Under the pieces are notes generated by a model. The model was not told the DNA's origin. It saw only the letters and a list, made by a program, of their open reading frames with translations, and searched no databases. This document shows, piece after piece, positions 6,439 to 29,312 of a DNA stretch of 30,181 bases. The first letter of the stretch is position 1, and each line of letters opens with the position of its first letter. Both the position numbers and the translations under genes were made by a program. The stretch is from a virus: positions 1 through 30,181 of IMG/VR virus record IMGVR_UViG_3300043409_002084. One strand, given 5' to 3'.

Positions 6439-7989
6439 TCAGTAATCGGCCTTGGAGGTAGGGCCGGTGGCGGTGGGCGAGCGGGGCGCGCCGGCTTCGT
6501 GCAGGGGTTTGAAATAGCCGTGCGCTTTCTCGAAGCGGGTCTTCACGATGCCGCGCACGCCGGAGCGGCGTTTATCGACGCAGAGCCACATCTCGGGATT
6601 GGTCGTATCCAGGCCGACTTGCTCGCGCCCGGCCCCATCGACGACGGGCATATGCAGGAAAATCACCACGTCGGCATCGTGGTAGAGCGCTTGCGATTCG
6701 CGCAGCGCGCCGCGGTCGGGCAGCTCGTGGATCACCTTGCCCTCCTTGTCCTTCTTGACCGTGCGGAGCTTGGAGAGCGAAGCCTCGTTGAGCTGGGCGC
6801 CGCCGATGGTCACGCAGCCGAGCTCGCGCTGGAGCGCCTGCCAGGTGTGCGAGATATGCGCGACCTCCTGCTCGCGGGAGCTGCAGCGCTTGCCGACGCC
6901 GATGAGTTGCAGGTAGTCGAGCACGAGCACGTGCGGCGTGCCGTGCTGCGCGCACCAGGCGCGCGCGTGGGCCGCGATGCCCTCAATGGTGTCGAACGCT
7001 ACGTCGTCTTTTTTCTCAAACAAAAACAGTTTCTTGTCGGCCTTGGCTTCGAGCTCGGCGAGCGATCGGTCGAGCCGGGCGACGTGATCCTTGGGCGCGC
7101 GGGCGAGGCCGCGCACACTGGCGCGCGCGGTCGTGGCGGCCATCGACTGCACGAAGGAGTAGCGCGTGGTCTCGATGGTGTAAACGAGGGCGCGCTGGCC
7201 GCGCTCAACGGCGAGGCTCGCGATATTGCGCATGAGGACGCTCTTGCCCATGCTGGAGCCGCCGCCGATGATGACGTTCCCATCCTCGCGCATGGAGCCA
7301 AACGGCATCATGCACGAGGAGGAATCAAGGTTGTCGAACTCCGGGAAGCCGGTGTGAATCCAGCCGGTGCGGTCCTCCGTGCCGGCGGCGCGGGCCGCCA
7401 CATCGGCGCGGATCTGGGCGATCACGACGCCGAGCGTCTCGACGACGGCGCTATCCCCCTGGCGCGCGCGCGCGGTGGCGGTCTGAAACCAGGCGGCGAG
7501 CGGCGCAAAGAACTCAGCAAAGGGCTCGCCCGAATACCGGTGGCAATCCTCAATCGCCTTTTGCGCGCGGCGGATGGTCTGGCGGAGTATCCAGAATTTC
7601 CGCACTTGGTCGATCCAGTGGCGGGCGTGCGCGGAGGTGCCTTGGTAAGTCGTGATTTGGGTGAGCACGGCGTAGCTGCCGATGCGCTCAAGGTCGCCCG
7701 TCTCGCGCAGACGCTCGGCCACGGTGGCAATGTCGATGGGGTGTTGCGCAATGCCCAGCGTGCGCACGGCGGCGTAGATCGTGCCGTGCTTGGGGTCGTA
7801 GAATGAGTTTTTGTCGAAGTTGGCGTTGCGGCAGAGGGGAAACACCTCGTCGGGATAGGCGATCACGAGCGCGAGGAGCGCCTCCTCGGCTTCGAGGGAG
7901 TGCGGGAGCGCGCGGCCGACTTCGGGGAGGGCGGCAAGGGCGCGCGACGCGTGGGCAGAATCGGCGGCGGAATACGTTTCGAGGTGCAT
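6439..7989 (-). CDS. Replicative DNA helicase, DnaB family
   Basis: The 516-residue product has the DnaB layout. Residues about 28-130 are the N-terminal helical domain (PHSLEAEEALLALVIAYPDEV, FYDPKHGTIYAAV). A linker follows, then the RecA-like motor with Walker A GGGSSMGKS at 242-250, catalytic Glu in YTIETTRYSF near 273, Walker B VLVLDYLQLI at 354-363, and IGGAQLNE at 395-402 in the place of the usual sensor/DNA-contact motif. A C-terminal KTRFEKAHGYFKPL matches the terminal strand of phage DnaB helicases. I chose the ATG at 7989 as the first conserved start; it lies 8 bases after the initiator stop. It should unwind the fork loaded by the gene just upstream. No primase or polymerase is visible in the window. 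Confidence 0.9.
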   Translation of the reverse strand: MHLETYSAADSAHASRALAALPEVGRALPHSLEAEEALLALVIAYPDEVFPLCRNANFDKNSFYDPKHGTIYAAVRTLGIAQHPIDIATVAERLRETGDLERIGSYAVLTQITTYQGTSAHARHWIDQVRKFWILRQTIRRAQKAIEDCHRYSGEPFAEFFAPLAAWFQTATARARQGDSAVVETLGVVIAQIRADVAARAAGTEDRTGWIHTGFPEFDNLDSSSCMMPFGSMREDGNVIIGGGSSMGKSVLMRNIASLAVERGQRALVYTIETTRYSFVQSMAATTARASVRGLARAPKDHVARLDRSLAELEAKADKKLFLFEKKDDVAFDTIEGIAAHARAWCAQHGTPHVLVLDYLQLIGVGKRCSSREQEVAHISHTWQALQRELGCVTIGGAQLNEASLSKLRTVKKDKEGKVIHELPDRGALRESQALYHDADVVIFLHMPVVDGAGREQVGLDTTNPEMWLCVDKRRSGVRGIVKTRFEKAHGYFKPLHEAGAPRSPTATGPTSKADY

Positions 7990-7997
7990 GGGGAAAA

Positions 7998-8810
7998 TCA
8001 GGCCGTGGCGGAAGCCGGGTAGGCGCCGCCGGCCCACGTGGGATCGTTGAGCAAGGTGTTGAGCTCGGGAGAAACCACGCTCGCCGGGCTTGCACCGAAA
8101 TTTTTCGGACCAGAGGAGCTGGAAAACGCGGCGCGGCGGGCGGCCTCGCGCATCCAGCGCCGGGCGGCGGCGTGCCACGAAGCGAGCGGCCGGCCGGTGT
8201 TGAGCGTCCAGCCGTTGCTCTCGTAGTGGTCGTAAAACTCCTCGGCGTGGGCTTCGGTGCTGTGACGACTCAGGAAGAAGAGCGCAGCGATGAATAGGGC
8301 GCTCGGTCTTTGGCCGTCAGGCTCTCCGTCGGGCTCTCCGGAAGGTTGAATGACGGTTGGTTTGTTTGGGTTGTATGATGATTGGGGTGTCTGTGTGGCA
8401 CCAGGGGGGTGACGGTGTGGCACCGGTATTTCGGACTGGGTGGCACCCGTGGGGTGACTGTCTGGCACCGGTGGGGTGACGGTCGGGCACCCGTGGGGTG
8501 ACGGTGTGGCACCCATAGGGGCAGCCCGATTGACCGCCTCGCGATGCACAAAGTAATCGTTGGCGCGCCGGCCGCCTTCTCTGCGGCCGCCGTCAACAAT
8601 GTCGATCCAGCCGGCATTTTGGAGGGAGCGAATCGCGCGTTGCACCGACCGCTCGGAAAGTTTCGTGCGTTGGGAAATCTGCAGAACGCTCGGCCAGCAC
8701 TTGCCGAGGTGGTCATTGGCTTGATCGGCCAGCACTAAAAGCACGAAGCGTTGGATAGGATCGGAAGGCTCCGGGCGCTCCAGAACGAGGGTCATCAGTT
8801 TGATACTCAT
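7998..8810 (-). CDS. Replication initiator (lambda O-like) with winged HTH
   Basis: Here 270 codons start MSIKLMTLVLERPEPS. Residues 1-85 are a winged helix-turn-helix of the type found at the front of phage and plasmid initiators (FVLLVLADQANDHLGKCWPS, RTKLSERSVQRAIRSLQNAG). Residues about 97-138 are a Pro/Thr/His-rich linker encoded by the iteron array. The C-terminal part (FIAALFFLSRHSTEAHAEEFYDHYESNG to ASWHAAARRWMREA) is a conserved helical domain that would contact the helicase. A helicase gene directly downstream and iterons inside the gene match lambda O/P organisation. It is coupled by ATGA to the gene upstream. The melting site is probably the AT-richer DNA at about 8341-8396. Confidence 0.8.
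   Translation of the reverse strand: MSIKLMTLVLERPEPSDPIQRFVLLVLADQANDHLGKCWPSVLQISQRTKLSERSVQRAIRSLQNAGWIDIVDGGRREGGRRANDYFVHREAVNRAAPMGATPSPHGCPTVTPPVPDSHPTGATQSEIPVPHRHPPGATQTPQSSYNPNKPTVIQPSGEPDGEPDGQRPSALFIAALFFLSRHSTEAHAEEFYDHYESNGWTLNTGRPLASWHAAARRWMREAARRAAFSSSSGPKNFGASPASVVSPELNTLLNDPTWAGGAYPASATA
8397..8521 (-). repeat. 22-bp iterons inside the initiator gene, putative replication origin
   Basis: On the plus strand, near-identical 22-base units start at 8397, 8442, 8464 and 8486. A degenerate 23-base unit starts at 8419 and a partial one at 8508. Each begins GGCACC and contains GGGGTGAC about 10 bases in. Because 22 is not a multiple of three, the units are read in rotating frames, so the DNA rather than the peptide is conserved. 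The neighbouring stretch 8341-8396 is richer in T/A (TTGGTTTGTTTGGG, GTATGATGATTGG) and is a good unwinding element. Location inside an O-like initiator gene matches lambdoid origins. Confidence 0.75.
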
Positions 8811-9154
8811 AGGGCGAAAAGGTCAGTCTGCGTGCCCTGCGGGCGGCGCTCATCGAGTTTGGCGGCGAGCCACTGGGGCGTCATCTGGAAGGGTTTGCCG
8901 TCAGGATCGGTGGCCGGCGTGAGCGCGATGATCGCGTGAATCTCCTCGAAGAGACCGGGGAAATACGGCGTGTAGCGCAGCCAGAAACCGTAGCCGTTCT
9001 TAATGCCGCCGCGCGGCTGCACGGGCTGCTGCGTGCCGTCGTCGTGCCGCCAGTGGAAATCCAGCGGCAGAGGGTGATTCGCGAGGTAGCGCTCGGTCTT
9101 GGCCTGCGTCCAGAGCTCGGCGGGATCAAAGAATCCATCGGGAGTTGTCTTCAT
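8807..9154 (-). CDS. Hypothetical protein in replication operon
   Basis: The encoded 115 residues start MKTTPDGFFDPAELWTQAKT. The protein is rich in aromatics and Pro (NGYGFWLRYTPYFPGLFEEI) and ends in an acidic, Leu-rich TDLFAL. The ATG at 9154 overlaps the upstream stop by ATGA, and its own stop overlaps the initiator start by ATGA (8810-8807), so it is locked into the replication operon. The C-terminal half (TPQWLAAKLDERRPQG) may form a short helix. I do not recognise a family. Helicase loader and primase accessory proteins are sometimes this small, but no motif supports either. Confidence 0.7.
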   Translation of the reverse strand: MKTTPDGFFDPAELWTQAKTERYLANHPLPLDFHWRHDDGTQQPVQPRGGIKNGYGFWLRYTPYFPGLFEEIHAIIALTPATDPDGKPFQMTPQWLAAKLDERRPQGTQTDLFAL

Positions 9155-9453
9155 GGCAAAAGGTCGGTGGGGCCGAGCGTAGCGCGGGCCTCGTCGGTCT
9201 TGCGCGCAGCGAGCGCGGCGTGGGCGTGGTCGAAGAGCGGCGCGGCGTTCGTCTTGAGCCACTCGCCCATAAACTTCGGGCACGCCTCCGGCCACCGCCC
9301 CGGCGAGCGGCGCAAGTGCGCAAGCAGAGCGGGACCGCGATCATTGAGCCATCGCGCGCTCTCGGTGCGCGTCCACGGCTTGCGGCGCTGCCACGCCTGC
9401 TGCATGACGAGGGAGTGCGCCTCGGTGTGCTGGGAATTTTGAAGCGTGCTCAC
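9151..9453 (-). CDS. Hypothetical helical protein in replication operon
   Basis: This gene encodes 100 residues beginning MSTLQNSQHTEAHSLVMQQAWQRRK. It is basic and Trp-rich in the middle (RKPWTRTESARWLNDRGPALL, GRWPEACPKFMGEWLKT), with an Ala-rich C-terminus. Both boundaries are ATGA overlaps (9453-9450 and 9154-9151). Residues 25-60 could form a helix-turn-helix-like pair of helices, but I cannot assign it to a known DNA-binding family. No Shine-Dalgarno precedes it, so translation probably depends on the upstream gene. Confidence 0.7.
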   Translation of the reverse strand: MSTLQNSQHTEAHSLVMQQAWQRRKPWTRTESARWLNDRGPALLAHLRRSPGRWPEACPKFMGEWLKTNAAPLFDHAHAALAARKTDEARATLGPTDLLP

Positions 9454-9971
9454 CAGCGGCCTTTCCGGCGCGGCAAGCGCCCGGTGAATTGCAGGCCGTT
9501 GGTGCCGCCGTCGATGACTTGAAGCACCATGCCCGGCGTGAAGAGGCGGTTATCCCGCACGCGCACGGCGCGCTCAATCTTGCCGTTGAACGGCGAGCAC
9601 AGAAGGATGCGGATATTGGGTGGCACGCGCCGCACCACCATCATCACGCGCGGCGCAGGCCCATCCTGTATGGCTAGGGCTGGCGCCGCAGGGCTTGCAA
9701 TCGCCGGTGAGGGTAAGGACTCGGGCCGCAGCGCCGAAGCGATTATTTCGAGGCCGCTGGCCGTGAGCACGACGGCGTTGCGCACGATGCGGAAGTGTTT
9801 GCCCTCGGTCAGCCGCTCAACGCGCAAGGCGACGATGCGCTCCCGCGCCACGCCCAGGCTCTCGGCGACCTTGGCCTCCCAGAAGAGCTCACTCCCCGCG
9901 TCGGCGGGAGTCGTCGCCGCCGGAGCGGGTGGAGGTGGCGGCACTTCGCCGGAAGATTTTTTTCGGCTCAT
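9450..9971 (-). CDS. HTH-like protein with C-terminal basic domain
   Basis: The product has 173 residues. After a Lys/Pro-rich start (MSRKKSSGEVPPPPPAPAAT), residues about 27-80 read like a helix-turn-helix with wing (LFWEAKVAESLGVARERIVA, GKHFRIVRNAVVLTASGLEI). A Pro/Ala linker follows to about residue 107, and then a compact basic domain (RVPPNIRILLCSPFNGKI, VRVRDNRLFTPGMVLQVI) shaped like a small beta barrel. A DNA-binding role is likely. It is the first gene after a 157-base GC-rich spacer and is coupled by ATGA to the next gene. The target and role cannot be stated. Confidence 0.65.
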   Translation of the reverse strand: MSRKKSSGEVPPPPPAPAATTPADAGSELFWEAKVAESLGVARERIVALRVERLTEGKHFRIVRNAVVLTASGLEIIASALRPESLPSPAIASPAAPALAIQDGPAPRVMMVVRRVPPNIRILLCSPFNGKIERAVRVRDNRLFTPGMVLQVIDGGTNGLQFTGRLPRRKGRW

Positions 9972-10128
9972 AGGAAACGGAATCGGAAATCATTGGCCCA
10001 AAATTCCGTCGCAATGGAATCAGTCGGCTCCACACCCCCCCCCGCGGAAACGGGCACCCCCCCCTCCCCCCCTCGCGCGCGCTCGCGCCCGCGCGCGCGC
10101 GCGTCGTCGCGGTCAGCCGCGCGCGCGC
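9972..10128. other. GC-rich low-complexity spacer
   Basis: I see no gene here. The DNA contains C runs (eight or nine C near 10,033 and again near 10,060) and an alternating CG tract around 10,078-10,106 that could adopt a left-handed (Z) form. It lies between two minus-strand genes. No promoter boxes or terminator hairpin with a T tract are evident. Confidence 0.5.
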
Positions 10129-10812
10129 TCACGGCCGCACCTCCGCGCCCGCGCCCGTCATCCGCCCACCATCCGCCCGCACCTGCTCGGCTCCATCGTG
10201 CGATGGGCGGAAAACAGGTGACTCAGAATCACCTGACGCCCGAAACTCGATGCCGGCCGCGCCTGGGATCTGCCCGCCGGCCGCCTGGTCGGCGCCCTTT
10301 TGGCCGACAGTCTCCCGACCCTCAACCGGTGCCGGTGCGCAGGCCTGCACCTCGATCACTCCCAGGCTTGCGAGCATATCGTTGAGGCCGGCATGCGTCG
10401 GGCCGGTGACGTGCTCGATCCTGACCGTGGCGCCGCCAGTGAGGAGCAGCGCTTTGTCGGTCATCACGCCGGCGAGGATCGGCAGCGATGCGCGCGGCAT
10501 CTCGTCGATCTCATCCCGGCACCGGTCGATTGCCTCACGCGCCAGGGCGAGGGCATCCAGGCCGATGCTTTGTTTATGGCGGTCTAACTCCCCGCTCTCA
10601 AGCGCCTGCCGGCGCAGCGCACGCACGACCTCGCGCGACACCCCGAACGCGGCCGCCACCCGGCGACTCCCCTGCCCTTCGGCGACCGCACCGAGCACGG
10701 CCGCGCGCAGATCCGCGCGCGCATCTAGGCAGCGCGCCGTGCATCGGCCGCCCTTGCGGTCGTTCTCGATGCTCAACAACTCATCCCCCTCGGTGCCGAG
10801 GGCCGCGTGCAT
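10129..10812 (-). CDS. HTH protein, possibly terminase-small-subunit-like
   Basis: The frame from the ATG at 10,812 encodes 227 residues; a longer frame to 10,893 would overlap the upstream gene by 44 bases. Residues about 28-66 form a clear helix-turn-helix (DLRAAVLGAVAEGQGSRRVA, AAFGVSREVVRALRRQALES). The next helices (DALALAREAIDRCRDEIDEM) lead to MTDKALLLTGGATVRIEH, a segment seen in small-terminase-like and related phage HTH proteins (recalled, not searched). From about residue 165 the sequence is low in complexity and is overlaid by a paired GGGCGGAT repeat and a perfect inverted repeat, so the C-terminus may serve DNA-level signals. Alternatives are a transcription regulator or an origin-binding accessory protein. 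Confidence 0.65.
   Translation of the reverse strand: MHAALGTEGDELLSIENDRKGGRCTARCLDARADLRAAVLGAVAEGQGSRRVAAAFGVSREVVRALRRQALESGELDRHKQSIGLDALALAREAIDRCRDEIDEMPRASLPILAGVMTDKALLLTGGATVRIEHVTGPTHAGLNDMLASLGVIEVQACAPAPVEGRETVGQKGADQAAGGQIPGAAGIEFRASGDSESPVFRPSHDGAEQVRADGGRMTGAGAEVRP
10160..10178 (-). repeat. Third copy of the 19-bp paired GGGCGGAT motif
   Basis: On the minus strand this reads GGGCGGATGGTGGGCGGAT. It has the same 11-base spacing and the same intervening T as the two copies that flank the candidate attP (16,511-16,529 and 16,713-16,731). It lies inside the 3' end of the HTH gene. A single related GGGCGGA is at 10,205-10,211 on the plus strand. Confidence 0.6.
10205..10240. promoter_or_regulatory. 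Nested perfect hairpin / operator-like inverted repeat
   Basis: CAGGTGA (10,214-10,220) and TCACCTG (10,228-10,234) form a perfect 7-bp inverted repeat around a 7-base loop. It is enclosed by GGGCG (10,205-10,209) and CGCCC (10,236-10,240). It lies within the coding 3' end of the HTH gene. The inner stem-loop has the geometry of a tRNA anticodon arm, and CAGGTGACT also occurs in the tRNA-like segment at 16,656-16,664. It could be a protein-binding palindrome or an RNA structure. Confidence 0.45.
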
Positions 10813-11800: not shown

Positions 11801-12151
11801 ATGCACACGCACACGAACAGCCAAATCGAGCGCCCGGCCCTCAGTCCGTCCGCTCTCGCCGACCGCACCGCCCCGAGCTATTGCAGCCGCCAGCACAGTT
11901 CCGCCCTCGACCTCGCCGACCGCCTAATCTCTGAGCCAGATTGTTCGGCTTGGCTCCGGGGCGCCATTGTCCGCGCCCTCGGCCGCGATCCCGTGGACGC
12001 GGTGGCCGACGCCGAAATCCTGCTTTCCGTGCTCTCCGCGCGCTTGGAAGAGTTGCAGGCCGACCCCCGCACGCCGTATCGCTCCGCCTGGCATGTTGAG
12101 CAAGCCGAGTTCTACGCTGAAAAGTTCGCCAGCGCAGGGGGTGCCAAATGA
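11801..12151 (+). CDS. Small cassette protein with RDPVDAVADAE motif
   Basis: The product has 116 residues from MHTHTNSQIERPALS. After a polar N-terminus, residues about 35-92 form an all-helical domain: SSALDLADRLISEPDCSAWL, then GAIVRALGRDPVDAVADAEI, LLSVLSARLEELQ. A W-L-R...A...RDPVDA..DAE pattern is one I associate with small proteins on proteobacterial plasmids and integrative elements near antirestriction genes (recalled, not searched). Here too it is coupled by ATGA to an ArdA-like gene. Function is unknown, and a counter-defence role is only suggested by the neighbour. The ATG follows AGAGAAAACAT, with no good Shine-Dalgarno at normal spacing. Confidence 0.7.
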   Translation: MHTHTNSQIERPALSPSALADRTAPSYCSRQHSSALDLADRLISEPDCSAWLRGAIVRALGRDPVDAVADAEILLSVLSARLEELQADPRTPYRSAWHVEQAEFYAEKFASAGGAK

Positions 12152-12675
12152 GCACGACCACCAGCGCCGCCCGCATCTATTGCGGCACATATGCCAAATA
12201 CAACTCCGGCAGCATCGCCGGCGCTTGGCTCGACCTCGCCGACTACGCCGGCCGGGATGAGTTGCTTGTCGCGTGCTTCGATTTGCACGCCGACGAGGCC
12301 GACCCTGAGCTCATGTTCCAGGACTGCGAAAGTTTCCCGGCCTGCTGGTATTCGGAATGTTCCGCGCCACCGGATATGCTTTGGGAGTGGCTTGCCCTCT
12401 CCGACAGCGAGCGCCTGGCATTTGAGGCCTACGCCTCGACCAAGGGCCGCGCCGATACCGTCACCATTGACGATTTCCGCGACACCTACGCAGGCACGGC
12501 CGACAGCGAGGCCGATTTTGCCGAGCGCACCGCCGAAGAGTGCGACCAGCTCCCCAAAGATTTACCGAGCTGGATTATGATCGACTGGGCTGCCTCCTGG
12601 TCGTGCAACCTCCGGCACGATTACGTCACCGGCACCGACTCGGAAGGCACCTTGCACTTCTTCCGCAACTCTTAA
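12148..12675 (+). CDS. ardA: ArdA-like antirestriction protein
   Basis: At 175 residues this is slightly longer than typical ArdA (about 165). The N-terminus RIYCGTYAKYNSGSIAGAWL is the hallmark first domain. The middle has MFQDCESF in place of the usual DYEGF-type segment. The C-terminus has FAERTAEECDQLPKDLPSW followed by IMIDWAASWSCNLRHDY, matching the YIDYEAWARDL..DY end of ArdA. The protein is strongly acidic (many Asp and Glu), as expected for a mimic of B-form DNA that occupies type I restriction-modification enzymes and protects incoming DNA. It overlaps the preceding gene by ATGA and is the best-recognised member of the rightward cassette. Confidence 0.85.
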   Translation: MSTTTSAARIYCGTYAKYNSGSIAGAWLDLADYAGRDELLVACFDLHADEADPELMFQDCESFPACWYSECSAPPDMLWEWLALSDSERLAFEAYASTKGRADTVTIDDFRDTYAGTADSEADFAERTAEECDQLPKDLPSWIMIDWAASWSCNLRHDYVTGTDSEGTLHFFRNS

Positions 12676-14033: not shown

Positions 14034-14048
14034 CAGACCGCGCCCCAC

Positions 14049-14080
14049 GGGCCGCCCCTCACCGGGCGGCCCTTTCTTTT
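14049..14080 (+). terminator. Rho-independent terminator
   Basis: GGGCCGCCC (14,049-14,057) pairs perfectly with GGGCGGCCC (14,064-14,072) around a 6-base loop and is followed by TTTCTTTT. The 9-bp GC-only stem plus U tract is a textbook intrinsic terminator for the rightward cassette. Confidence 0.85.
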
Positions 14081-14194
14081 GCCCACGTGCCCGCGCCCGA
14101 GCCCGCCCACGTGCTCGCCCACGTGCTTGCCCACGTCCATACCCCACCGCGCCCACGTCCAAACCCCACCGCGCCCACGTCCAGACCCCACCGC
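14081..14194 (+). repeat. Tandem GCCCACGT repeat array
   Basis: Three 22-base units are at 14,129-14,150, 14,151-14,172 and 14,173-14,194. Each begins GCCCACGTCC and ends CCCCACCGC, with one variable base. They are preceded by 12-base units GCCCACGTGCTC (14,105) and GCCCACGTGCTT (14,117) and by GCCCACGTGC at 14,081. The shared core GCCCACGT appears six times in about 100 bases. No gene is supported here; a minus-strand frame across it is a shadow. Candidate roles are protein-binding iterons or a second origin-like element. Confidence 0.75.
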
Positions 14195-14220
14195 GCCGCA
14201 CCGTTTTAAACGCCCCACCT

Positions 14221-14300: not shown

Positions 14301-14786
14301 ATGAGCTCCGCCGTCAAATTGACCAAACTGGTTGGCTTCCACGCCGACACCGACATGCAAGCCACCATCTACCGCCGCGCGGCAGAGGTGGCCGAGGGTA
14401 ACGCATCGGCTTATCTCCGGCGCCTAGCGGTCGCCGACATCACCGCCGCCGGGGCACGGCCCACCGGCGTGCAATCCGATATCCTCGCGCGCCTAGCCGC
14501 GCTCTACCGCCCGCGCATTGCCGCGCAGCTCGCCGAGCTCCTCACCCGCGCGCAGATCGATCAGCCCGCGCTCCTTGAGAATTTGCTTTTAGAATTGTTT
14601 ACTACCCTGGCAGCGGGTCACACCGCCGCCGAAATCCACATTCACAATACCCCAAATGCTACCCCGGCTCCGATGGCTCTCCTGCTCCCTCCTCTCCCTG
14701 TTGCGGAAATTCTCGACGCTAAACAAAAACTCGCCGCCGCCGCCCGCACCAACGCTCGCGCATCCGCTCGGCAGTCTCGAAAATGA
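14301..14786 (+). CDS. RHH-like protein, possible regulator
   Basis: The product has 161 residues. The first 50 (KLTKLVGFHADTDMQATIYR, then EVAEGNASAYLRRLAVADI) fit a ribbon-helix-helix: a short strand, a helix, the turn GN-S, and a second helix. Residues 55-115 are all-helical and Leu/Ala-rich (LARLAALYRPRIAAQLAELL) and could mediate oligomerisation. A Pro-rich stretch and a basic C-terminus (RTNARASARQSRK) follow. The organisation resembles plasmid mobilisation accessory or repressor proteins. It follows the copy C control region and precedes the poly-G gene by 7 bases. Confidence 0.6.
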   Translation: MSSAVKLTKLVGFHADTDMQATIYRRAAEVAEGNASAYLRRLAVADITAAGARPTGVQSDILARLAALYRPRIAAQLAELLTRAQIDQPALLENLLLELFTTLAAGHTAAEIHIHNTPNATPAPMALLLPPLPVAEILDAKQKLAAAARTNARASARQSRK

Positions 14787-23782: not shown

Positions 23783-23908
23783 GGCGGCGGAGGGTCAGAG
23801 GGAGAGGGGGAGACGGAGAGGCGGAGAGAGGGGGAGAGGGGGAGAGGGGGAGAGGGGGAGAGGGGGAGCGTGAGAGGGGAGATGGGGTGGCGTTTGGCGC
23901 GGTCAAGG
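23783..23908 (+). repeat. GA-rich spacer with tandem GGGGGAGA units
   Basis: This 126-base spacer between two minus-strand genes is nearly all purine on the plus strand from 23,791 to 23,884, including about five tandem 8-base GGGGGAGA units near 23,829-23,869. The leftward transcript would carry a C/U-rich tract just before the next start. No gene is visible here. Confidence 0.8.
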
Positions 23909-25558
23909 TCAGCCGTAGGAGCTGCCGCCACCGTAGGCACCGCCGGGGTTGGAGGAGCCGGAGGAGCCGCCGAACGCGCGGCCCACGGCGCCGCCAATCA
24001 TGCCGCCAATCGGACCGCCGAGCACCGCGCCGCCGATGGAGCCCACCGCACCGAGGATCGAGCCCATGCCAGCCGCGCGGTTATTCTGCGCGCTGTTGTA
24101 GCGCGAGGCGGCGGCGTTGTAGTTGGTGTTATTGAGGTCGCTCATGTAGTTGAGCGTTTGGCCGGTGTAGTCGGGTGTGCCTTGGGCGAGCTGCGCGGCG
24201 TAGGTGCCGGGGTTGATCGCTTGCGTGCCGTATTGGCCGGCCACGGCCTGCGAGCGGTTAAACTGGTCGTTGCCCTGCTGGAGCTGGCCTTGGTAGTTAA
24301 AGCGCGCGTTGGCATCGCCCCGAGCGGCGGCGTCTTGGTTCATGGCATTGATGCCGCTGGCGTTGAACTGCTGATTCTGCATCTGGCCTTGATAATTGAA
24401 CCGCGCGTTGGCATCGGCGCGGCTGGCGGCGTCTTGGTTCATGGCGTTCATGCCGGTCGCGTTAAACTGCGAGTTTTGCTGGTTTTGGCCGGCGTTAAAC
24501 TGCGCGAGGTTTGCGCCGATTTGGTTGGCTTGGCCGGTGTTGAATTGCGAAATCCCGGTGCGCTGGCCGGCATTAAACTGGCTCATCTGATTCTGCTGGC
24601 CGGCGTTGAATTGGCTGAGACCTTGGTTTTGCGCCTGCACGCCTTGGGCGTAGCCACGGTTTTGATTGAGTTGCTGTTGGCCGGAGGCATCGACGCCTTG
24701 GGCAAACTGCGCGTTTTGCATTAGGCGGGCGCGTTGGGCTTGATCGGTGCCGAGGATTTCAGCGCTGATGCCAGCATTGCTGCGGCCCATGCCGCGGTCG
24801 CTGTAAGCGGAGCGCGCCGCCTGCTGCGCATCCATCGTCTCGCCTTGGGTGAGGCGGCCGCCGGTGGCGAGGAGCGCGCCGGCTTGGTTTTGGAGCTGGC
24901 CTTGCAGGCCGGACACTTGGCCGAGATTGCGCGCGGCGTCCATTTGCAGCGCGCCGCCAAGGGGGCCGCCTTGAGCCGCAGTAAAGCGCGCATCGGTGGC
25001 GCGGGCTTGGCCGGGGGTGAATTGCGCGTTGGAGGCTTGCGCACCGGTGTAGGTAGCGGAATTGGTCTGCACGCCAGGGAGACCTTGGGAGCCGGTGAAT
25101 TGCGCCGTGTTGGTCTGCACGCCGGGGATCGTCTGGCCGTTGAGGCGGTCGCGGTCGGCGGCGAGTTGGGCGTTGGCGGCGTTTTGCTGCGGGTTGGCTT
25201 GATCGTAGGCGGTGCGCAGATTGGCCCCGAGGGAGCCGGTGTAATACTGGTTGAGCGAGGCATCGCCCGAGGAGAGGCCGGCATTGGCAGCGGCAAAGTC
25301 TGAGAACTGCCAGCCTCCGAGCTCACCGGCGCCCTGTTGGCGTTGAAATTCCGCGAGCACGCCGGGGTTGGCGCGGTCGTAGGCCACCTGGTCGAAGTTG
25401 CCCCGGAGGGCACTGTTCATGTTGGCGAGGTTGGCGCCCGTGTATTGCGGCGAGTATTGGGTGTAGGCATTGGCCCCGGCCCCGGCGATGGTGCCGAGCG
25501 CGGCACCGGTGCCGGCGAGCTCGGTGGTGGCATTGCGATCAGCGGGAAACGTAGGCAT
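23909..25558 (-). CDS. Asn/Gln-rich repeat protein with C-terminal glycine zipper
   Basis: This 549-residue protein has many Gln, Asn, Ala and Gly. Residues about 315-430 contain repeats of SQFNAGQ type (FNAGQQNQM, FNAGQRTGI, FNTGQANQI, FNAGQNQQN) and two near-identical copies of a unit of about 31 residues containing NAMNQDAA and DANARFNYQGQ. The last 50 residues carry a glycine zipper (GAVLGGPIGGMIGGAVGRAF) able to insert into membrane. This combination fits a DNA-ejection or needle-type protein that extends and then crosses the host membrane. It could also be a tail protein. Both neighbours are separated from it by GA-rich spacers. The ATG at 25,558 is preceded by CCCTCCTCCC. Confidence 0.65.
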   Translation of the reverse strand: MPTFPADRNATTELAGTGAALGTIAGAGANAYTQYSPQYTGANLANMNSALRGNFDQVAYDRANPGVLAEFQRQQGAGELGGWQFSDFAAANAGLSSGDASLNQYYTGSLGANLRTAYDQANPQQNAANAQLAADRDRLNGQTIPGVQTNTAQFTGSQGLPGVQTNSATYTGAQASNAQFTPGQARATDARFTAAQGGPLGGALQMDAARNLGQVSGLQGQLQNQAGALLATGGRLTQGETMDAQQAARSAYSDRGMGRSNAGISAEILGTDQAQRARLMQNAQFAQGVDASGQQQLNQNRGYAQGVQAQNQGLSQFNAGQQNQMSQFNAGQRTGISQFNTGQANQIGANLAQFNAGQNQQNSQFNATGMNAMNQDAASRADANARFNYQGQMQNQQFNASGINAMNQDAAARGDANARFNYQGQLQQGNDQFNRSQAVAGQYGTQAINPGTYAAQLAQGTPDYTGQTLNYMSDLNNTNYNAAASRYNSAQNNRAAGMGSILGAVGSIGGAVLGGPIGGMIGGAVGRAFGGSSGSSNPGGAYGGGSSYG

Positions 25559-25642
25559 GGGAGGAGGGAGTCGGGAGAGGGAGAGACGGGAGACGGGAGA
25601 CGGAAGAGGGGGAGACGGGGAGAGGGGGAGAGGGAGTGGGCG
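25559..25642 (+). repeat. GA-rich low-complexity spacer
   Basis: An 84-base spacer made mostly of GGGAGA, GGGAGACG and GGGGGAGA units on the plus strand, related to the spacers at 23,783 and 29,229. No gene or hairpin terminator is seen. Confidence 0.8.
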
Positions 25643-26704: not shown

Positions 26705-26765
26705 GGGAGGAAGAGGGGGCGGAAGAGGGAGAGAGGGGGAGACTTGGAGAGGGGGAGACGGGGGG
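26705..26765 (+). repeat. GA-rich low-complexity spacer
   Basis: A 61-base, almost pure purine plus-strand spacer (GGGGGAGA, GGAGAGGGGG) between the two tail genes, belonging to the same repeat family as the spacers at 23,783, 25,559 and 29,229. Confidence 0.8.
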
Positions 26766-29228
26766 CTAGGCGTGGCGGAGGTTATTGCGGGGGCCGAGCT
26801 GGGCTTGGAGGTCGATGGCGCGCACTTTCATCGCGCCGGTGGTGTTGGTGACGGTGAGCTGGCACCAGGCGGCCTCGCGGCCGATGTCGCGGCGCTCCAC
26901 GCCGCTTTGGAAATCTTCGAGGCGCACAGAGTCTGGGCCGGCCGTCGTGGCGGCCAGCGCCCCGGGGGTGAAGCCATCTTCGGTGCCTACTTGCACATGA
27001 TACGCTCCGCCAGAGGTGATGAGGAGCTCGACTACGCGCGTGAGCTCAAGCAGGCTGATGCTTCCGAGTTGATTGGTATCGGCCGAGTGGTAGGTGGTGA
27101 TAGCACCGGGGCCGGGGGCAAAGCCTGAGTAGGCCAGCGCATCGGTGTGGTATTCGCCGGTGCGAATCCCGCCAGAGCGGTAATTGTAGAGATCCAGCAC
27201 GCGCTCATAATCGCGAAACGAAATCACGCCGTCGCGGTTCGCATCGGCCGAGTGGTAGCTAGAGAGCGCCGTGGGCACGGAGGGCGTGCCGAGATAGAAG
27301 ACGATGTTGGCCGTATCGAAGCCGAGGTCGGTCCAATACTCGGGGTGAAAGAGGGGATCGTTGCCGTAGCTTGCGACATTGGCCGTGAGGCATTGGTAGT
27401 TGTGTTGATACGTTGCGCGCTGGCCTACGGTGTAGCTGCTGCCGGCGACCCACGTAGGCGTGGTGGAGCTGCCACCGGTGACCTTCCACCAGAAAGCAGG
27501 GTCTTCGCCCGGCACATTGGTGGCGATGCCCGTGGAGCTCTGGAGGGCGCGGTAGTTATGGCCGTTGACGGGGGAATAGACGTTATCGTTAGTCGCGTAG
27601 GTGCCGCCGACTGCCCAACTCGCGTAGCCGCTGGCAGGGCTGGCAGTGATGATGACACTGTAATCTTGCCGGCGCGCGTTGTGGAAATCGCCATTGATGT
27701 TGGACGCCACGAAATCCGCCGTGCTCGTGAAATACTTGGTGCGGTCGCGGCTGACAGCGGCGAGCGATTGGCTCTCGGCGGGGCCGTCAAACTGCGCGGT
27801 GAGGCCGGGGCTGGCATACCACGTATCGAGGAGCACTTGCGCGCGGGTGAACTTCTTGGCCTCGGCGCTGCCTGCCGTGTAGCCGCGCGTCGTGAGCGTG
27901 CTGGTGATGTCTGCGCGCCTGGGCGTGGTGCCGATGTAGCCTACGAGATCCTCGCCCAGATGGAAGTCGTAGGCGGCTTGGCGGCCGTTGGCGGAGATGG
28001 CAAAGAGCCGGGGCTCATTGAGCCAGGGCACGGCGGGAGCCCACGCGAGCACGGCAAAATTGACGAGGGTGGTGGTATTCCACTGATCGTAGCTCTCCCA
28101 GGCGTTTACTTGGCGATTCCACACGAGGAGCGTCTGCGGGAGGGTCTGCAAATCGAGCGCGACGGAGAAGAAGATGCGCTCGGTGGTGACGGCAGCGCTG
28201 AACAACGCGGCGTATTTCCACGCGATCCGGCGGATGAGGGGGGCGATGCGGTCGCTCACCGTGGAGTCGATGCGGAGGAGGACTTTATTATCGACTTCGA
28301 TGGAGCCGATTTCGGCGGTGCGCACGCCCCGGCGGTCGAGCCACCAGACTTTGTTATCGGCGGCGATGGCCGTGAGCGGGCTATCGAACTGCATTTCCAC
28401 GGGCTGCGTATCAATGCGCGCATCCGTGAGCGCGGCGGCCACGGAGGTGTAAACGTGGAGGCTCTGGCTCTTGAGCACGAGGAGCGAGGAGGAGCCCAGC
28501 GGCACGGCGGCGCGCAGGGTATCGCCCCGGCCACGGTTGACGAAAATGACGCCGTAGGTGGCGTGATACTGCGTGGAATCGAAAATCGCCGAGAGCACGA
28601 GTTCATCCCGCCCCGAGAGGAGGACCGTGCGCTCGCGCCAGGCGAGGCCATAGCTGGCGGGCGGCACGGCGGCGTAGCCGGAGGCGATGGAGCTCGGCAC
28701 GAGCTCTTTGACGCCATCCGACCACGCACCGGCCCAGACGAGGGAGGTGAGCTCGCCGCCCCGGATGATAATGAGCTGGTTAAAATTCTGAATGATTTGG
28801 CAGGCCGCGGATACGGTGATGCCCGGCGCAAAGGGCACGATCCGGCCAATTTCCGTCTCGCGAGTAAAGACGAGGGACGTGGCGCACACGCGCACGATCC
28901 ACGTATCGCCCTCGGTGCCGGGATCGGCAAAGACGCCGCCGCCGTAGGTGGTGGCGTAGGTGGCGATGTAGGCCGCATCATCATCCCGCAGGTAGCTTGA
29001 GCGGTAGGGGAAATCTTCGCTCGCGTGGCGCGACCACGCTGGGGCCGCCCAACCGCGGCGGCTCTCATAGACGCCTTCGACGAGGCGCAGATTCAGGGCC
29101 GTTGAGACAAAGCCCGGCGGCACGAGCGGCGGCGCACGCATATCCACGCCGGCAAACGCGAGATCGCCCGACTCCGCTGCGAGGGCGGGGGTATCGCGGG
29201 GGCCGAGCGGAGTGTGGCGGGGGAGCAT
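26766..29228 (-). CDS. Tail protein with CBM-like and dockerin-like modules
   Basis: Its 820 residues divide into parts. Residues 1 to about 440 form a beta-rich platform with alternating hydrophobic strands (PPGFVSTALNLRLVEGVYES, WWLDRRGVRTAEIGSIEVDN), resembling podovirus tail-tube/hub proteins. Residues about 540-640 hold two CBM5/12-like modules (GGTYATNDNVYSPVNGHNYR; WVAGSSYTVGQRATYQHNYQ) ending in FWWKV and YWTDLG. Residues about 655-745 carry two dockerin/EF-hand-like repeats, HSADANRDGVISFRDYERVL and HSADTNQLGSISLLELTRVV. The first keeps the D-x-N-x-D-G calcium loop; the second has lost the third Asp (DTNQLG). A C-terminal beta domain follows. It probably forms the tail and grips host surface polysaccharide or protein. 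Confidence 0.7.
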   Translation of the reverse strand: MLPRHTPLGPRDTPALAAESGDLAFAGVDMRAPPLVPPGFVSTALNLRLVEGVYESRRGWAAPAWSRHASEDFPYRSSYLRDDDAAYIATYATTYGGGVFADPGTEGDTWIVRVCATSLVFTRETEIGRIVPFAPGITVSAACQIIQNFNQLIIIRGGELTSLVWAGAWSDGVKELVPSSIASGYAAVPPASYGLAWRERTVLLSGRDELVLSAIFDSTQYHATYGVIFVNRGRGDTLRAAVPLGSSSLLVLKSQSLHVYTSVAAALTDARIDTQPVEMQFDSPLTAIAADNKVWWLDRRGVRTAEIGSIEVDNKVLLRIDSTVSDRIAPLIRRIAWKYAALFSAAVTTERIFFSVALDLQTLPQTLLVWNRQVNAWESYDQWNTTTLVNFAVLAWAPAVPWLNEPRLFAISANGRQAAYDFHLGEDLVGYIGTTPRRADITSTLTTRGYTAGSAEAKKFTRAQVLLDTWYASPGLTAQFDGPAESQSLAAVSRDRTKYFTSTADFVASNINGDFHNARRQDYSVIITASPASGYASWAVGGTYATNDNVYSPVNGHNYRALQSSTGIATNVPGEDPAFWWKVTGGSSTTPTWVAGSSYTVGQRATYQHNYQCLTANVASYGNDPLFHPEYWTDLGFDTANIVFYLGTPSVPTALSSYHSADANRDGVISFRDYERVLDLYNYRSGGIRTGEYHTDALAYSGFAPGPGAITTYHSADTNQLGSISLLELTRVVELLITSGGAYHVQVGTEDGFTPGALAATTAGPDSVRLEDFQSGVERRDIGREAAWCQLTVTNTTGAMKVRAIDLQAQLGPRNNLRHA

Positions 29229-29312
29229 GGCGGCGGAGGTGGAGGCGGAGGCGGAAGAGGGAGAGGGACGAAAGAGGGGGAGAGGGGGAGACGGAGAGAG
29301 GGGGAGACGGTC
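29229..29312 (+). repeat. GA-rich low-complexity spacer
   Basis: An 84-base spacer that moves from GGAGGTGGAGGCGGAGGCGG into GGGGGAGA-type repeats on the plus strand. It separates the lysis cluster from the large tail gene. In the leftward transcript the bases before the tail start read CCTCCGCCGCC. Confidence 0.8.

Follow-up and report, generated by a model that had tools for sequence, protein, structure and literature searches.

The window, meaning the whole stretch of DNA that was analysed, is a viral record of 30,181 bp. No end repeats were detected at the ends of the contig, which may be incomplete. A scan of bacterial genome contigs with the helicase found no relative; the terminase in such a scan gave a best match of 47%, to a Verrucomicrobia MAG, which is only a weak hint of the host. 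An ArdA-like antirestriction gene lies at 12148-12675 (Pfam ArdA 2.5e-19). The features of the initiator locus, and of a second repeat region, are:

7998..8810, minus strand: replication initiator gene P0001, 270 aa (Pfam HTH_36 and PHROG matches), encoding a winged-helix domain (residues 1-95), a disordered linker (96-172) and a C-terminal helical domain (about 171-229)
6439..7989, minus strand: DnaB-type replicative helicase gene, 516 aa, directly downstream of the initiator
8386..8513, minus strand: iteron array of six 22/23-bp units, each a 17-bp dyad GGTGCC-N5-GTCACC
8497-8513, 8475-8491, 8453-8469, 8431-8447 (degenerate), 8408-8424 and 8386-8402: iteron units 1 to 6
8339..8383, no strand assigned: AT-rich stretch of low stability that flanks the array toward the C terminus, a candidate unwinding element
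8322..8716, minus strand: cassette that spans the iterons, the AT-rich stretch and the greater part of the DNA-binding domain (blastn breakpoints versus L004)
8637..8639, minus strand: codon for Arg58, in the recognition helix (residues 53-66 of the AlphaFold2 model), associated with GTGAC-type half-sites
14081-14197: second tandem array, 12-bp units followed by 22-bp units GCCCACGTCCAAACCCCACCGC

P0001 has both marks of an HTH_36, O-like initiator: an N-terminal HTH_36 domain (residues 20-69, 5e-11) and an O-like PHROG match, its best matches being PHROG 1032 ("replication initiation protein", 1e-25) and 391 ("replication initiation (O-like)", 1e-19). AlphaFold2 pLDDT is 69-95 at residues 1-90 and 30-40 for most of the linker, and the predicted disordered linker spans the iteron array as well as the AT-rich stretch. 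The direct repeats fall between the two functional domains that the initiator gene encodes, which is the lambda-type arrangement. Neither P0001 nor lambda O had relatives in a PDB sequence search, and Foldseek with the P0001 model returned generic winged-helix proteins only (MarR, TFE, RPC62, TubR; best E 0.002, none below 0.001). The initial annotation had placed a helicase gene after the initiator and AT-richer DNA beside the array, and both are borne out: the downstream gene is DnaB-type by Pfam (DnaB N 2e-18, DnaB C 4e-27) and PHROG (19, 1e-48), and 8339-8383 is 58% AT versus a median of 33% (top 1.3% of the window). The least stable 45 bp of the initiator gene are positions 8340-8384 (top 1.0%).

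Tandem Repeats Finder (TRF) reports a 22-bp unit in 6.0 copies at 8383-8514. On the minus strand GGTGCC starts at window positions 8513, 8491, 8469, 8447, 8424 and 8402, with spacings of 22, 22, 22, 23 and 22. Each dyad is an interrupted inverted repeat of 17 bp whose arms are complementary at 5 of 6 positions. When the units are aligned, as the initial annotation had proposed, the 17-bp core GGTGCCNNACNGTCACC is exact in units 1, 2, 3 and 5 and has one mismatch in unit 6, while the degenerate unit 4 lacks the right arm. If as many as 2 mismatches are allowed, the core occurs 5 times in the whole window, always within the array, versus 0.33 expected. The repeat score of the initiator gene is 192.5, compared with maxima of 22 in 300 dinucleotide shuffles and 80.5 in 300 synonymous-codon shuffles. 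TRF, the unit spacing, the shuffles and the AlphaFold2 linker thus agree with the earlier placement of iterons in the initiator linker. The earlier count of four units plus a degenerate and a partial one becomes six units in one array, and the earlier unit, GGCACC..GGGGTGAC, which runs across the boundary between two adjacent units, has to give way to the natural one, GGTGCC-N5-GTCACC. The array does not include the 12-bp repeat at 8314-8340, an in-frame protein repeat that varies among relatives.

Units 1-6 fall in reading frames 0, 1, 2, 0, 2 and 0, so that all three frames are used. The initial annotation took this rotation as a sign of selection on DNA; the rotation is real, but a period not divisible by three is by itself no proof of selection because tandem duplication could give the same pattern. 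Support for DNA-level selection comes instead from the shuffle control and from the relatives. The array might, on this account, be a neutral minisatellite, produced by tandem duplication in a tolerant, disordered linker and without a DNA function, and tandem arrays do occur elsewhere in the contig, such as the copy-number-variable one at 14,081-14,197. However, the close relatives L002 and L003, whose initiator proteins are 94-95% identical to P0001, retain six units at constant positions, and their array DNA is 98.6 and 99.3% identical to that of the window, exceeding the identity of the parts encoding the DNA-binding and C-terminal domains.

More distant relatives have a different repeat at the same place. 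The L004 initiator (51% identical) carries ACGGGTGCA-AACCT-TGCACCCGT, likewise a dyad, with 5 bases at its centre and units spaced at close to 22 bp. By blastn, L004 aligns with the window in two blocks, one running from 9700 down to 8716 at 93% identity and the other beginning at 8322 at 83%; the DNA between them has no match. L011 and L012 match at 74-86% as far as 8814 and 8853, just upstream of the initiator start codon, and again from 8260 and 8259; the segment replaced in these two contigs thus extends from about the start codon to about 8260. Their N-domains are unrelated to that of the window and give no HTH_36 match, and their linkers hold purine-rich repeats of 10-11 bp. Their C-domains, in turn, are 44-56% identical to that of the window, and the helicases of L004, L011 and L012 are 78-87% identical to the window's. 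Elsewhere, the C-domain's relatives are joined to several other types of N-domain; 13 were tested, and in each of them the linker repeats surpass all synonymous shuffles (the set was not de-duplicated). From the cassette swaps and the presence of linker repeats across N-domain types it follows that the DNA-binding domain travels with the repeats and the C-domain with the helicase; judged by these alignments, the DNA-binding domain and the repeats are inherited and exchanged as one cassette, between flanks that are 74-93% identical. Two PHROGs of "unknown function", 15768 and 28809, match initiators that combine the window-type C-domain (AEEFYDHYESNGW...) with other N-domains (examples are L011:3218-3994, L012:909-1694 and L005:5347-5880); these proteins are probably replication initiators with intragenic origins.

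Conservation of position without conservation of sequence extends to the family. A survey of 37 non-redundant HTH_36 initiators from IMG/VR, fetched by protein similarity, found linker repeats beyond all of 40 synonymous shuffles per gene in 37/37, versus 1/36 neighbouring ORFs; lambda O, the positive control, likewise scores beyond its synonymous shuffles. The repeats of all 37 stand at the same place and differ in sequence. In 38 genes, dyads with perfect 6-bp arms around 5 or 7 central bases occur about 3.6 times as often as in synonymous shuffles.

Scans of 2.9 million viral contigs with DNA patterns alone lead back to the same kind of gene. GGTGCCN5GTCACCN5GGTGCC occurs in five contigs: two of the window's lineage, two (L249 and L250) in which it lies in structural-type ORFs and looks like chance, and one from another phage, L177, with the pair inside an HTH_36 initiator's linker; the HTH of that initiator shares 39% identity with the window's. 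The single 17-bp unit is found in 104 contigs; outside the lineage these include five O-like genes (L146, L148, L177, L215 and L233). The pair pattern of the L004 type is present in 67 contigs, and in 53 of them it is inside ORFs with this N-domain, usually some tens of residues downstream of it; at least 6 of the other 14 have a winged-helix-like domain by eye. That a DNA pattern retrieves initiator genes is, at the sequence level, strong evidence that the pattern is the initiator's target. A neutral minisatellite is already contradicted by these comparisons (the survey and the residue code described below): repeats recur at the same place with different sequence in every relative surveyed, nearly the same unit lies in the initiator linker of an unrelated phage, and repeat sequence is linked to the recognition helix. 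We regard it as extremely improbable.

An origin of this layout is well known from lambda. The iterons of ori-lambda lie in the O linker and are 18-bp interrupted inverted repeats, with an AT-rich region on the C-terminal side and the partner gene next; each iteron is bound by O dimers, which open the AT-rich region by straining it (PMC6022878, PMC7466680). When lambda (L021) is used as the control, the window shares with it linker iterons between the DNA-binding and partner-binding domains, an interrupted inverted repeat in each iteron (17 bp in the window, 18 bp in lambda), an AT-rich stretch on the C-terminal side of the array (8339-8383, with a putative role in unwinding) and a replication partner gene that adjoins the initiator. 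Unlike lambda, the window has an HTH_36 initiator rather than Phage_rep_O, an unrelated iteron sequence in 6 units at 22-23 bp rather than 4 at 20-24 bp, and a DnaB-type helicase rather than the loader P. Pfam PF04492 (Phage_rep_O) has no match in P0001, whereas the lambda O control matches at 6e-36, and an HMM of the window's N-domain family does not find lambda O. The earlier description "lambda O-like" therefore holds for the architecture and the PHROG naming and fails for the DNA-binding family; because the initiator lies outside lambda O's Pfam family, there is support for saying that it "works like" lambda O but not for calling it one.

Closer in domain and in the position of the linker repeats are the HTH_36 "O-like" or "primosomal protein I" genes of Pseudomonas, Escherichia, Vibrio, Bifidobacterium and other phages, many of which contain arrays of 17 bp and/or 22 bp and adjoin a helicase or P gene. 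They differ from the window in iteron sequence, many having GTGCA half-sites, and some have a second, 17-bp array that the window lacks. In four Pseudomonas-type O-like genes (L013, L014, L026 and L071) the linker repeats begin with a 17-bp period and continue with a spacing of 22 bp or another length, which looks like two arrays one after the other. Within the window's own lineage, L004, L011 and L012 share the helicase, the flanking DNA and the initiator C-domain, and differ in the DNA-binding domain and repeats, which are replaced jointly.

Two other readings concern where replication begins. The dyads could be operator or copy-control sites, bound by the initiator for autoregulation or timing, with replication starting elsewhere. 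Initiator binding would explain the repeats and the code equally well in this case, and GC skew does not single out 8.4 kb: cumulative skew reaches its maximum at about 9.5-10 kb and its minimum near 17.3 kb, so that as an origin marker it is uninformative or mildly against 8.4 kb, where there is no classical origin minimum. The stretch at 8339-8383 is also only modestly AT-rich, and its 58% AT is counted against an origin, as are the lack of end repeats on a possibly incomplete contig and the initiator's place outside lambda O's Pfam family. However, an array in mid-gene with low-stability DNA adjoining and the helicase next is the ori-lambda layout (PMC7466680), and a search limited to the sigma-70 consensus found no promoter-like site on the initiator's strand at 7900-10200. 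These points are ones of analogy and layout only; with them, operator or copy-control sites appear highly unlikely. Alternatively, the origin could be the array at 14,081-14,197, which has a 22-bp period too, or could lie at the skew minimum. That array, however, is intergenic, behind a terminator-like hairpin (about 14048-14080) and ahead of a gene at 14301-14786, and it has no initiator-type dyads. Its unit number differs in a close relative, L136, the L002 contig has fewer of the 22-bp units, and no match to it was found in the L011 contig, its two flanks there standing about 4 kb apart. We have rejected it as an unstable intergenic repeat, and an origin at either of these places is scarcely credible. 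The contig holds further repeats: purine-rich arrays of about 8-bp period (GGGAGAGG-like) at 23788-23892, 25559-25636, 26705-26763 and 29207-29310, which recur at large-gene boundaries on the right side, and about two copies of a 99-bp unit at 24284-24470 within ORF 23909-25558. Since 99 is divisible by three, the latter repeat may be one at the protein level.

Repeat sequence is associated with the recognition-helix residue at position 58 (window numbering). Each non-redundant gene was assigned to a class according to which half-site, present in at least 3 copies, prevails in the 270 nt that follow the domain. Under this rule, which was fixed after the data had been looked at, Arg58 goes with GTGAC and other residues with GTGCA at 13:1 versus 1:54 overall (p = 5e-12), and at 8:0 versus 0:22 in the subset retrieved from viral data by protein similarity (p = 1.7e-7); 41/110 genes, 11 of these with Arg58, belong to neither class. 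Among 807 residue-by-column tests across the whole domain, Arg58 is strongest by far, the next best having p = 0.003. When genes not chosen by DNA are anchored on GTG..N5..CAC only, those with Arg58 have AC 29 times, with CA absent among the pairs listed, and the non-Arg58 genes have CA 73 times, with AC absent among the pairs listed. Arg58 is present in all five O-like genes that the GGTGCC..GTCACC unit retrieved. When the recognition helix is excluded from tree building, Arg58 and the half-site class each change 11 times on the tree, and 6/7 well-supported independent pairs agree with the rule, at most 1 being opposite (p = 0.03); without the DNA-chosen genes, 4/4 pairs agree in most pairings, which is too few for significance. 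A strictly out-of-sample set gives 2:0 versus 1:3 (p = 0.4) and is underpowered because the 288 and 395 genomes searched hold few clear phage initiators. The window itself fits as a hybrid, in which Arg58 is found with GTGAC in the right arm and GTGCC in the left. At the neighbouring residue, Arg57 is accompanied by CCGGCA repeats in 6/6 classed genes and in L348, and Gln57 relatives have CCCGCA; the genes with Arg57 and CCGGCA-type repeats are L032, L033, L060, L077, L082, L104 and L348, and this link may reflect one clade. It therefore seems rather probable, from these correlations, that HTH_36 phage initiators follow a readable code, in which residue 58 would set the last two bases of the half-site (GTGAC for Arg, GTGCA for others) and a change of Gln57 to Arg may go with a change of CCCGCA to CCGGCA. 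Searches of open-licence papers found no earlier report of such a specificity code.

Taken with the analogy to lambda, the comparisons make it very probable that this phage has its replication origin within its own initiator gene and that the array supplies the iterons of that origin. The initial annotation had called the repeats direct sequence evidence for an origin. The origin reading is supported, since every comparative prediction that could be tested holds (conservation in close relatives, repeats in all surveyed HTH_36 relatives, joint replacement, DNA-only retrieval and the link to a recognition-helix residue), although "direct" is too strong for evidence of this comparative kind. Because all 37 relatives have the repeats, the cassette is swapped jointly and a DNA-only pattern falls in O-like genes in 53 of 67 contigs, the origin is, as far as sequence comparison can tell, a lambda-like intragenic one, a known type, here found in phages remote from lambda whose initiators belong to another DNA-binding family. 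By analogy we infer initiator binding, strand opening, helicase recruitment and replication start at the array: dimers of the winged-helix domain would bind the 17-bp dyads, several dimers would wrap the array and strain the adjacent AT-rich stretch until it opens, and the C-terminal domain would then recruit the DnaB-type helicase encoded next door.

Since the repeats sit in codons of the disordered linker, the initiator gene carries its own target, and initiator-origin pairs of O-like initiators can thus be read straight from metagenomes. The cassette swaps and the Arg58 correlation make the specificity of initiator for origin testable by single point mutations in purified domains. If the code is true, the origins of uncultured phages, and the phages that share an origin specificity, would be readable from sequence.
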